Shown one piece after another: positions 25,003 through 44,599 of a DNA stretch of 64,000 nucleotides. The translations under genes were made by a program, and so were the position numbers. Below the pieces are notes generated by a model. That model was not told where the DNA came from. It made no database searches and saw only the letters and a program-made list of their open reading frames with translations. The stretch covers positions 620,001 through 684,000 of the forward strand of contig NZ_FQLR01000004.1 in NCBI RefSeq assembly GCF_900119895.1, read 5' to 3'. Source of the DNA: Collinsella phocaeensis (lineage in GTDB: Bacteria; Actinomycetota; Coriobacteriia; Coriobacteriales; Coriobacteriaceae). How positions within the stretch are numbered: position 1 is the first letter of the stretch; every line of letters starts with the position of its first letter.

Positions 25003-25065
25003 CGCCCGATGGCTCCCGGCAGCGGGTATCATAGGGCGAACGCCAACGACCGCCGGGAGCGACAC

Positions 25066-26634
25066 ATGGATATCAGCAAAGACGACAGGCTCGAGGCCGA
25101 GGGGGCCGAGACGCCGTGTTCCGAGAGCGCGGGGCCGATCGAGGACCGCCGCATCGACGACGCCGGCTGCGGCGCTACGGCGCGCGGGTGCGCCGGCATG
25201 CCTTCCGCTTCGGCAAAAGACGCCGAGGACGCGCGCGAGGCGCCTTCTGAGAGCGATGCCGGCGCGGACGGGGAGGCCGCCGCTTCGCCCTCGGCCGCCC
25301 CGCTTCGGGAGGATGGTCCCGCCGACGGCCTGTCTGCGGATGAGGAGGCGACGGTGCGGATCGACCATGCCGCGACCGCGACCCCGGCGTACGCCGATGC
25401 ATGCGCGCAGACCTCCGAGGCGCTTCAGGACCTTCTCGAGCACAACCTTGCGATGACCTCGCTCACATCCGTCCTGCCGCGCCAGGACGCGCCGCTGTAC
25501 CGCGCCGGCCGAGACGGCTCCACGCAGGCCATGCCGCGCGTGCCCGAAGCGGATCTGCCCAGATCCGCCGACGACGACCCCGCGCCGCGGCGCCCGCGCG
25601 TGTCCCGGCGCGCCGCGCTCGTCCTCGCCGTCGTCGCGCTCGCCGCCTGCGCCGTGGGCGCGTTCTTCGCCTTCGGCGGCCCCGCGCTGCTCTCGCGGGT
25701 GACCGAGGTCGATGTCGAGCGCGTTCTTGCGGCCGACTCCTCCTTCATGGATGGGTTCGCATCGAATGACTACGTGGCCCCTTCCGCATACGAGCTGTCC
25801 GACGTGCGCATCACCCAGACCCAGACGGACGCGGACGGTGCGGTGGTGGTCGATGCGACGGCGACCCTCGCGAACGAGAGCTTCTCGAGCGATTGCCTGG
25901 TGATCCTCAAGTTCGCGCGCGCCCAGGACGCCGACCGCATCCCCGATCTCGCAGGCGCTCAGCGCATCGAGGGCGAGACGTGGGTCGGTGCCGTCGTCCA
26001 GAGCTCAGCCGCCACGCGCGCCATCGCGCCCGTCACGTCCGACCCCGATTTTCCACAGGGCCTCGACGTGACGTTCGACGCTGAGGCCCAGACGTGCTCC
26101 TTCGAGGACACGACGACCGACGAGTTGTGGTTCGGCGTGCGCGCGACGACCGTTCCCTACACGTATTCGTTCGACGGGGAGTCCTGGTCGCGGGTCGCGG
26201 GCGACGCGTCGTCCTCGTTCGCGCTGAACGCCGACGCCCTGGCCGGGGCCTACGCCCCGAGCGGATCGGGCGCGGGGGCCTTCTCGACCTTCACGGTGCG
26301 CGGCGTGGACGCCGGCGCCGCAACGTTCACCATCGAGTACAAGGCGACAAGCGGCGGCCTCGCCCCGCAGACCGTGACGGGCGTCATCGAGTGCTCCTTC
26401 ACGATCGAGCCGGACGGCGACAGCTCGCTGCGCCAGCCCGACGGCTATGTCTACGCGTTCACGGGCGAGGGCGCGAGCTCGGGCGGCGCCGGCTCGTCCA
26501 AGATCGAGGGCGCGATCGGCCTGGACGGCACCCTCGTCGTTGACGCGACGGTGGACTACACGCGCTCCGCCTTCCTGTTCGGCTCCGCCTCCGACGAGCA
26601 GCTCGCGATCTCCGGCACCCTGGCGCACGAATAG
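25066..26634 (+). CDS. Membrane-anchored hypothetical protein with large extracytoplasmic domain
   Basis: I do not recognise a family. The 522-residue protein begins with about 180 hydrophilic, acidic, low-complexity residues. One transmembrane helix (ALVLAVVALAACAVGAFFAF, about 185-204) is preceded by an Arg-rich stop-transfer PRRPRVSRR. About 310 residues of Ser/Thr/Asp-rich sequence with alternating beta-like patterns follow. This is type II topology with a long cytoplasmic tail, as in some surface proteins and regulators that sense the cell envelope. The ATG is preceded by CGGGAGCG. No partner gene is adjacent, and the next 800 bp are non-coding. Confidence 0.65.
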   Translation: MDISKDDRLEAEGAETPCSESAGPIEDRRIDDAGCGATARGCAGMPSASAKDAEDAREAPSESDAGADGEAAASPSAAPLREDGPADGLSADEEATVRIDHAATATPAYADACAQTSEALQDLLEHNLAMTSLTSVLPRQDAPLYRAGRDGSTQAMPRVPEADLPRSADDDPAPRRPRVSRRAALVLAVVALAACAVGAFFAFGGPALLSRVTEVDVERVLAADSSFMDGFASNDYVAPSAYELSDVRITQTQTDADGAVVVDATATLANESFSSDCLVILKFARAQDADRIPDLAGAQRIEGETWVGAVVQSSAATRAIAPVTSDPDFPQGLDVTFDAEAQTCSFEDTTTDELWFGVRATTVPYTYSFDGESWSRVAGDASSSFALNADALAGAYAPSGSGAGAFSTFTVRGVDAGAATFTIEYKATSGGLAPQTVTGVIECSFTIEPDGDSSLRQPDGYVYAFTGEGASSGGAGSSKIEGAIGLDGTLVVDATVDYTRSAFLFGSASDEQLAISGTLAHE

Positions 26635-26773
26635 GGGAGCGGGCTCGCTTCGACGCGGGCCGTCGGTGCCGCCTGCCGCGGACGGGTTGGCCCTTGGGTC
26701 TTGGCGCATGTGGGGGAGCGGGCCTTGCGCGGCGCCATGCCCGCACCTCACCCCGCTGCGGGCGGCTCGTCTC

Positions 26774-27117
26774 CCACGGCACAGCGCGCATGCATGGCGA
26801 GAAGCGGCCCTCGCCTTCCCAACGCAGATTGAGGGGAGGGTGGCGCCCGTGATCTCGACGGGAAGCGGCCGCAAGGCTCCCCAGTTGCGCGTTGGGGAGC
26901 GGAGCGCCCATTATCTAGATATGAGACGGCCTTAAGCTTCCCCATCTGAAGCACGGGGAAAGCAACGCCCTGAATCAAGGCGGCAAACGGCCCTAAACTT
27001 CTTCAGTTTCGAGTTGGGGCACATGCCGCCAGTTTTCTCGATGGGAAGCGGCCAAAGCTTCCCCGACGTCGCACGGGGGCACGTGGCGCCCACGGTCTCG
27101 ACGGGAGACGGCGGCGG
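26774..27117. repeat. 61-bp tandem repeat array, locus A (about six units)
   Basis: Units are 26774-26836, 26837-26897, 26898-26958, 26959-27019, 27020-27079 and a partial at 27080-27117; the middle three are exactly 61 bp and the next is 60. Units share a core like CTCGACGGGAAGCGGCC followed by AAGCTTCCCC, and end in GGGG. Each GCTYCCC can pair across a loop of 8-12 bp with the GGGGAGC-like start of the next unit; at 26875-26900 the stem is a perfect 8 bp. Units diverge by 30-40 percent but keep spacing. The array lies between an unknown membrane protein gene and the transketolase genes. Single-copy stretches between 26635 and 26773 hold nothing recognised. Confidence 0.8.
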
Positions 27118-27419
27118 ATGCGTCCGCTAGAACACGCTGCTTTCGCCCCCCCCGAAGCCCGGCCGCCGTTCACCTCGCGCCCGGGGTCCGGTCGCCCGTG
27201 CCTTCGTGCGCCTTGCGGCCTTGGCCGCCCGTCATCCGACATCGAGTCGTGTACATTTTACAGACCGGCCGACGTGCGTGCTAAAGCGTTTATTCGACAG
27301 CGTGAGCTGGGCCGTTCGCCCGCGAGCGGGGGTCGTTCGGCGCTCCTTCGCCGAATATGCGCCCACGGCGGCTGCTATAGTGGAGCGGTACCGTCACATT
27401 CCTTAAGGAAGGACCGTTC

Positions 27420-28316
27420 ATGACACGAGATCAGCTCAGGAGCGCGTGCGCACGCCCTGACGGCGAGATCGCCCTCATCGCCAACAGCATGCGCCGCAAC
27501 ATCATCACCATGCTCGAGGCTTCCGGCACCGGCCATCCGGGCGGCTCGCTGTCCGCCGCGGACATCATGGCCACCCTCTACTTCTCCGGCGTGATGGGCT
27601 ACGACCCGTCCGACCCGGAGTGCGCCGAGCGCGACCGCTTCGTGCTCTCCAAGGGCCATATCGCCCCGGCGCTCTACGCCGTGCTCGCCGAGGTCGGGTA
27701 CCTGCCCGTCGAGGAGCTCGTCACCCTGCGCAAGCTCGGCAGCCGTCTCCAGGGCCATCCGGACTGCAACCTCTGCCCCGGCGTCGAGGTCTGCACCGGC
27801 TCCCTCGGCCAGGGTCTCTCCATCGCCGCGGGCCTCGCGCTCGGCGCGAAGCTCGACGCCGCCGACGGCGCCGCATGCGGCCGCGTGTTCGCCCTTACCG
27901 GCGACGGTGAGCTGCAGGAGGGCCAGAACTGGGAGGCGATCATGTTCGCCGCCCACCGCAAGCTCGACAATCTCGTCGTCATCGTGGACAACAACAACCT
28001 CCAGATCGACGGCTTCGTGACCGACGTGTGCGACGTCTCGCCCGTCGCCGCCAAGTTCGAGGCCTTCGGCTGGCATGCCATCGCGTGCGACGGCCACGAC
28101 GTCGCGTCCGTCCGCGCCGCGCTCGAGGCCGCCGTGGCCTTCGAGGGCGCCCCGGTGGCGATCGTCGCCAAGACGGTCAAGGGCAAGGGCGTCTCCTTCA
28201 TGGAGAACCTCGCCAGCTGGCACGGCAACGCTCCGTCCGCCGAGCAGGCGGCCGCCGCGTGTGCAGAGATCGATGCGGCCCGCGAGGAGCTTCTCGCCGC
28301 CGTGAAGGAGGCGTAA
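27420..28316 (+). CDS. Transketolase, N-terminal (thiamine-diphosphate-binding) subunit
   Basis: First half of a split transketolase, 298 residues. The substrate/ThDP region reads GTGHPGGSLSAADIMA, then SKGHIAPALYAVLAE, GSLGQGLSIAAGLALG, and the Mg-ThDP motif ALTGDGELQEGQNWEA with IVDNNNLQIDG. Together with the next gene it makes the alpha2beta2 enzyme that exchanges two-carbon units in the non-oxidative pentose phosphate pathway, linking ribose 5-phosphate to glycolysis. That matches the ribose-producing cassette at the window start, though the genes are 20 kb apart. The ATG follows AAGGAAGGA; TATAGT at 27375 is a possible -10. Confidence 0.93.
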   Translation: MTRDQLRSACARPDGEIALIANSMRRNIITMLEASGTGHPGGSLSAADIMATLYFSGVMGYDPSDPECAERDRFVLSKGHIAPALYAVLAEVGYLPVEELVTLRKLGSRLQGHPDCNLCPGVEVCTGSLGQGLSIAAGLALGAKLDAADGAACGRVFALTGDGELQEGQNWEAIMFAAHRKLDNLVVIVDNNNLQIDGFVTDVCDVSPVAAKFEAFGWHAIACDGHDVASVRAALEAAVAFEGAPVAIVAKTVKGKGVSFMENLASWHGNAPSAEQAAAACAEIDAAREELLAAVKEA

Positions 28317-44159: not shown

Positions 44160-44233
44160 GGCGCGGGGTGGGCCGAGCGCGCCGTTGTCCGCTTGCCGCA
44201 CCGGGCGCTTCCTTATCCGATATCGCGATGGGG

Positions 44234-44355
44234 AAAGCAGGGCCCGTAATCCCGTCGAAAAGCGGCTTTAAGCTTCTCTAATTTTACGATGGGGCACCAG
44301 GGGCCCATCATTCCGCCGAGAGACGTCTCCGGTCTTTCCCAATGGGAGGTTGAGG
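44234..44355. repeat. 61-bp tandem repeat, locus B (two units)
   Basis: Two units of exactly 61 bp (44234-44294, 44295-44355), each following a GGGG and sharing CCCGTCGAAAAGCGGC with AAGCTTCTC or the matching CCGCCGAGAGACG with TCTTTCCC. They align position by position with the array at 26774-27117. Location: between truA and a glycosyltransferase-like gene. The rest of this 440-bp gap shows nothing else recognised. Confidence 0.75.
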
Positions 44356-44599
44356 CAGGCAGCGTCTCCGTGTCCGAGCATCCGCCCGTCCCGGCGTCCC
44401 GAACGGAGGGACGGCTGCGGACGCCCCGCCGGTCAAACGCGGTCCATCCCCACCTTCGCGCGGGCCTCGGGCCCATATTTGAAGTCCATTTGGATATCGT
44501 CTGTACTCCTCGCGCATGAGCGCGGGAAGGGGCGCTGCGGATACCTGAGGGGTGATAAGATGCAATCGATTTTGTGGCCGATCGGGGAGAGGATTCGGA

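Follow-up and report, generated by a model that had tools for sequence, protein, structure and literature searches.

A 61-bp tandem repeat with a conserved, dyad-symmetric core upstream of a transketolase gene in Collinsella phocaeensis

We analysed a 64,000-nucleotide stretch of the Collinsella phocaeensis genome (the window), in which a 785-bp gap between two genes contains a tandem repeat that we call array A. Five full units occupy positions 26791 to 27094, and a partial sixth extends to about 27117. Two further arrays of the same family, B and C, lie within the window. Unit scores are given in bits for R2, a model built from 20 units; R1 is an earlier, sequence-only model built from six units, and both were searched against the organism's own genome.

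25009 to 26634, plus strand: upstream neighbour, a gene for a 541-aa protein with no Pfam match, next to the transketolase gene also in sister species G021 and G038
26791 to 26851, plus strand: array A unit 1 (A1), placed by register, R2 36.2 bits
26852 to 26912, plus strand: unit 2 (A2), R2 50.9 bits
26876 to 26883 and 26893 to 26900, plus strand: perfect 8-bp dyad GCTCCCCA/TGGGGAGC in A2, seen in the sequence
26913 to 26973, plus strand: unit 3 (A3), R2 41.1 bits
26974 to 27034, plus strand: unit 4 (A4), R2 39.4 bits
27035 to 27094, plus strand: unit 5 (A5), 60 bp, R2 42.2 bits
27095 to 27117, plus strand: partial unit 6, placed by register, R2 only 7.1 bits
27370 to 27382, plus strand: GGCTGCTATAGTG, downstream of array A, near-identical in G021 and G038 by sequence comparison
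27420 to 28316, plus strand: downstream neighbour, Transketolase_N (PF00456, E 5e-59)
44188 to 44370, plus strand: array B, three units starting at 44188, 44249, and 44310, R2 37.6, 43.7, and 30.7 bits
48767 to 48951, minus strand: array C, three units, R2 35.9, 40.5, and 37.1 bits

A 40-nt register recurs along array A at spacings of 61, 61, 61, and 60. The self-match of the array at lags 61 and 122 is 0.48 to 0.49, a value reached by none of 2000 dinucleotide shuffles (shuffle maximum averaging 0.34). These results confirm the 61-bp tandem repeat described at this locus in a first-pass annotation. Its count of about six units was fair, given five full units and one partial unit with hardly any model score; its perfect 8-bp stem is real, and its estimate of about 11 units in the window is correct (five in A, three in B, and three in C). 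Mutual identity among the units of array A is merely 48 to 68%, and Tandem Repeats Finder at a score of 40 gave no entry there. We set aside coding sequence as an improbable reading: 61 is not a multiple of three, and the listed frames across the array look spurious by eye. A tRNA scan of the window found a single tRNA, far from array A.

Both flanking genes are kept in the sister species G021 and G038, where the upstream protein is 47% and 48% identical, respectively. The orthologous gaps measure only 173 and 216 bp and carry no array, so that array A either originated in this lineage or has disappeared from the others. By eye, four other near relatives have different upstream neighbours or none that we recognised. 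Among the transketolase matches listed, which come mostly from distant species, the best was to an uncultured Coriobacteriaceae MAG (70%); the gap before its transketolase gene also appears by eye to lack the array. The conserved GGCTGCTATAGTG may represent a -10 region or promoter; a simple promoter scan did not list it.

Other repeats occupy this position in some relatives. The genome of G042, another sister species, has a different inverted repeat, CGACCTGTCAGC, in the gap preceding its transketolase gene; this repeat occurs at 5 places in that genome, at none in its control, and at 0 to 1 in each of the other 42 genomes. Upstream of the transketolase gene of G022, we saw by eye another intergenic inverted repeat, TGACGGCTTTGTAC.../...GTGCAAAGCCGTCA, as well as a long GAGCGCCCGC-rich stretch.

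Within its own genome, the 61-bp family comprises 20 units spread over 8 loci, of which three lie inside the window. This is a lower bound: our first look scored 150 of 817 candidates, and faint single units may have been missed. At E<=5, R2 gave 32 matches in the own genome, consisting of the 20 units from which it was built, 8 overlapping matches on the opposite strand, and 4 others (E 1.2 to 2.3) that look like chance and were dropped as coding or unrelated. The loci outside the window, all matched by R2, are as follows.

C1:732297-732479: locus D, three units
C1:1468492-1468675: locus E, three units
C1:325465: locus F, one unit
C1:1033890: locus G, one unit, with tRNA genes on its right side
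C1:767575, minus strand: locus H, one unit, reached through a pattern search (place L154)

The loci lie between genes of every relative orientation: A, B, D, and H between codirectional genes, C between convergent genes, and E, F, and G between divergent genes. Since mechanical open reading frames cross the units at D, F, and H, where we placed gene starts by eye, calling those three loci intergenic is a judgement. Array B follows a truA-like gene for tRNA pseudouridine synthase, and array C is flanked by an ArgR gene (plus strand) and a penicillin-binding-protein gene (minus strand). Terminators around array C were apparent by eye, but the scan found none there and we made no use of them. A Mutator-family transposase gene (PF00872; 45963 to 47309, minus strand) lies between arrays B and C.

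Units of one locus resemble each other more (identity 0.57) than units of different loci do (0.45; permutation p 0.0002). The two most similar units are F and H, at 71%, and we saw no near-identical copy. Several other candidates fell away. Weak R1 matches in the own genome (L013, L014, L017, L018, L020, and L023) were dropped as coding or unrelated, and a DNA search of the genome with array A found one other place, a 19-base match inside a gene that we read as chance. The pattern CCCCA-N3..30-TGGGG occurs at 55 places against 57 in the control and thus shows no general excess. Seven of the places listed have a 9-base gap, two of them new: L154 led to locus H, and L155 looked coding. Five other places that we inspected contained no units.

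Searches of 42 other genomes of the genus, and of 22 more from the same taxonomic family, found no relatives of the repeat; they were run with stricter filters, which lose weak matches. Counting the own genome, R1 at E<=0.01 matched 1 of 43 genomes of the genus, the own one, whereas R2 matched 2 of 42 in the genus at E<=0.1 and 2 of 65 in the family at E<=0.02. In both R2 runs the other match was in G038 (E 0.0185), a GC-rich hairpin that follows a stop codon and precedes a short T-run; by eye it is a terminator, and we rejected it. Viral contigs contained, as a raw count, 8 stretches with the symmetric 16-base pattern and none with the A-type pattern. Among the species searched, then, the repeat was found in one. 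Text searches of the literature for such repeats in this bacterial group returned nothing to the point, and the main text of PMC3733652 nowhere mentions Collinsella, Coriobacter, or Eggerthella.

What the units share is, in outline, the core GG-N8-TTCCCCA-N10-GGGG-N10-CC. In array A, core columns are 0.86 identical and the rest 0.48, a contrast reached by 0 of 5000 column permutations. When the core was defined on loci B to H only, the A units still agreed at 0.89 within it and at 0.49 elsewhere (again 0 of 5000). Across all same-locus pairs, the values are 0.82 and 0.49; arrays B, C, and E show less of a contrast when each is tested alone (152, 175, and 51 of 5000 permutations). Unit spacing is 61 to 62 bp at 12 of 12 junctions despite a total of 308 substitutions between neighbours, which on general grounds would seem to be a smaller number of length changes than one would expect after neutral decay. 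Since the period and the core persist amid drift elsewhere, constraint is supported at the level of sequence.

An alternative hypothesis is that array A is a neutral tandem repeat of the VNTR/MIRU sort, its arrays made by slippage and its shared core due to mere descent. The clustering of units by locus agrees with this idea. We consider it doubtful, since neutral decay should wear all columns alike, whereas drift in array A is strongly uneven, and the period hardly changes. MIRU/VNTR and BOX-type repeats resemble the 61-bp family in having units of tens of base pairs that stand in tandem between genes at several loci; unit-wide dyad symmetry and a conserved core are features of the 61-bp family.

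This symmetry goes beyond what had been noted before: it extends over the entire unit, and its axes follow one another at intervals of 30.5 bp. A locus-weighted unit profile matches its own reverse complement best at a single shift (1.69; next best 1.38), against a permuted maximum of 1.32 (sd 0.05; 0 of 2000 permutations as high), and for the symmetry outside the inner stem 0 of 3000 permutations reached the observed value. Omitting any single locus does not alter the shift, and A, B, C, and D taken singly each give it as the best; E does not. In raw tests on individual arrays, shuffles scored as high in 6 (A), 3 (C), 7 (D), 54 (B), and 252 (E) of 500 cases. The opposite-strand R2 matches mentioned above (8 of 32, E 3e-5 to 3.6) occur in all five arrays. 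With axes at this distance, an array is a run of half-units in alternating inverted orientation, which explains why TCCCC and GGGGA can pair both inside units and across unit borders. The TGGG/CCCA arms of half-units pair in 65 of 100 cells, as a raw count.

Pairing of this kind had earlier been taken as a sign that the array may be a structured RNA, with every unit folding in a transcript and its stems maintained by selection. Some results agree with that proposal. With an outer helix, suggested by unit D2, included in the pairing tests, 72.6% of cells pair compared with 67.7% in shuffles over all units, of which 1 of 500 scored as high; all-unit shuffles were as high in 2 of 500 cases for both-sided cells, 16 of 500 for pair types, and 4 of 500 for a covariation score, and slid registers of the pairing model score lower than the actual one. 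In the conserved sequence of the inner arms, TTCCCCA/TGGGGAA, changes are few: 8 are C-to-T on the 5' side, which leave G-U pairs, and 4 are G-to-A on the 3' side, but this imbalance has a p value of 0.39. Unit A4 folds well and stands alone among the A units in its clearly low fold energy (z of -3.9 to -5.1 on the plus strand and about -3 on the minus strand). For array A as a whole, the fold z values are -2.45 (plus) and -1.52 (minus).

Shuffles over all units, however, ignore relatedness, and the excess vanishes once arms are shuffled within arrays. The outer helix then scores 88 against a mean of 85.7 (1101 of 5000 shuffles as high) and the inner helix 113 against 112.3 (1786 of 5000). Pairs with two-sided change are not in excess even over all units, where 186 of 500 shuffles were as high. 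Arms from neighbouring units pair about as well as arms from the same unit (outer, 0.65 versus 0.63; inner, 0.89 versus 0.82), and outer arms from other loci pair less well (0.53), so that covariation, where present, lies between arrays and not between units. The covarying bases that the first-pass annotation saw in other units thus find no support when relatedness is kept: pairing within a unit equals pairing among arms of the same array.

Other results speak against a folded transcript in the same way. Fold energies of the units (n = 20; mean z -0.55 on the plus strand and -0.71 on the minus strand) resemble those of 60 random 61-mers from the window (-0.47, sd 1.37). RNAalifold gave 7 pairs in the six units and 3 pairs in the 20 units, none changed on both sides, and in a stem search over all column pairs the outer helix had a Z of 3.0 and unrelated stems reached 3.7. 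Rfam gave no match at the gathering score in the window and none at E<=1 in positions 26500 to 27500. In addition, the unit is similar on both strands, and the genes flanking its loci stand in every relative orientation. These data lend no support to selection acting on how each unit folds, and a structured RNA is unlikely; the version in which every unit folds and its stems are maintained seems to us very improbable. The earlier argument that drift with preserved spacing betrays selection on structure holds for its first half, constraint, and fails for RNA structure, given the folds, shuffles, and RNAalifold results. Unit-level covariation, on which that argument leaned, is absent, and copies outside the window do exist, yet among the genomes searched they were found only in the own one. 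Nor does array A have the look of a gene, or of an RNA serving a particular function here. More generally, apparent RNA pairing in diverged tandem repeats can stem from dyad symmetry at the DNA level.

Two earlier suggestions survive, an array of protein-binding sites and a repeat that copies itself. In the first, a putative DNA-binding protein would recognise the dyad TTCCCCA-N10-GGGG, and axes every 30.5 bp, about three helical turns, would align its sites on one face of the helix, with a role in nucleoid organisation or local regulation. The conservation of core sequence and not of fold, the nearly invariant spacing amid so many substitutions, and a symmetry that suits a dimer all point this way. 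As the neighbouring genes share no visible function or orientation, and the related genomes searched hold no copy, we regard it as a modest possibility. A bolder variant, which we think improbable, is a lineage-specific DNA scaffold, with palindromic sites nearly in helical phase every 30.5 bp at eight chromosomal places and a putative protein that would preserve core and period as the remaining sequence diverges.

Repeats that copy themselves invite comparison with REP sequences and BIMEs. In these systems each element is a clear imperfect palindrome with a GT(A/G)G or CGTC tag beside it, and a cognate RAYT gene is flanked by inverted copies of the element. The 61-bp family resembles the BIMEs and tandem REP arrays of E. 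coli, Pseudomonas, and Stenotrophomonas in being intergenic and multilocus, in its alternating inverted elements at fixed spacings, and in its conserved arms, loose spacers, and local tandem clusters. BIMEs are described as regularly spaced REPs of alternating orientation (PMC2817692), and P. fluorescens SBW25 is reported to carry two types of REP in tandem arrays whose fixed spacings alternate (PMC3116915). Regular alternation is present in the 61-bp arrays (axes 30.5 bp apart), weakly so in E. The copies differ from BIMEs in being few, old, and diverged, and perhaps in half-units that pair poorly on their own. They resemble REPINs in that two inverted arms around a spacer make one symmetric unit, but 61-bp units stand head to tail and are not near-identical copies.

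Three marks of a REP system are not seen here. REPs are stated to exceed 100 copies per genome as a rule (PMC2817692), and here there are 20 units at 8 loci. No fixed head tag was found in the units: on either strand and at scattered positions, GTAG occurs in 1, GTGG in 6, and CGTC in 12 of 20, compared with 6.5, 10.0, and 10.0 in shuffled units. Nor was a cognate RAYT gene found: a search of the genome at E<=0.001 gave a single PF01797 gene, and the repeats on either side of it are GGGGACAGGCACY and not the 61-bp unit. On these three grounds, we do not file the repeat as a BIME; the likeness is one of anatomy.

We postulate that array A represents one site of a dyad-symmetric, interspersed and intergenic repeat, an orphan of BIME-like kind that works like a REP/BIME array and spread long ago, a reading to which we give about even credence. 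In its favour are the variety of gene contexts, the unit-wide dyad symmetry with its opposite-strand matches, the clustering of units by locus, the conserved core, the restriction to one lineage among the genomes searched, the orthologous gaps of G021 and G038 that hold no array, and the precedent in SBW25. In this proposal, a short palindromic element would have colonised intergenic sites in this lineage, its spread probably driven by an enzyme that recognised its hairpin or dyad. At five sites, slippage or unequal exchange may then have copied it head to tail, after which the copies would have drifted while TTCCCCA-N10-GGGG was kept, either through binding of a host protein or as a recognition site for as long as copying went on. 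The greater likeness of units within loci suggests that tandem copying was probably local, and the flat similarity over distance in array A, where units do not become less alike with the distance between them, fits old copying. As we saw no near-identical copies, mobility itself is only inferred. The weak symmetry of array E, and of B and E in the raw array tests, argues against the BIME-like reading. Overall, we regard array A as a commonplace sort of element with an uncommon build, an orphan, BIME-like repeat in tandem whose symmetric core is conserved. If the BIME-like reading is true, this would be a repeat of that type without a recognisable partner transposase. Together with the different inverted repeat in the same gap of G042, the 61-bp family hints at fast-changing, species-specific families of palindromic intergenic repeats.

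The own genome contains other palindromic repeats, and the 61-bp family might be a decay product of its RAYT-type repeats (the GGGGACAGGCACY family) or of a second, GTGCCAAAGGGG-like palindrome. Locus F lies 206 bp from a GGGGACAGGCACY-family repeat, H lies between two such repeats in opposite orientation, and D is flanked by the second palindrome. Nothing appears to be shared by eye beyond GGGGA, however, and among the places listed no RAYT-type repeat falls within kilobases of A, B, or C, so we find this origin barely credible. The RAYT/REP-type system and the 61-bp family are both palindromic intergenic repeats, but their sequences differ.

These other repeats are as follows. A Y1_Tnp (IS200-like, RAYT-type) gene at L192:1510-2253 (G000:C1, about 1412.4 kb) is flanked by GGGGACAGGCACY repeats, and the GGGGACAGGCACY motif occurs, with up to one mismatch, at 65 + 41 = 106 places in the genome compared with 3 in the control. 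The second palindromic intergenic repeat, GTGCCAAAGGGG...CCCCTTTGGCAC-like, was seen by eye beside loci D, F, and H (L010, L012, and L154) and stands on both sides of array D. At L188 (G000:C1:763.7 kb), a REPIN-like pair consists of two GGGGACAGGCACC-type repeats that face opposite ways, separated by about 150 bp.
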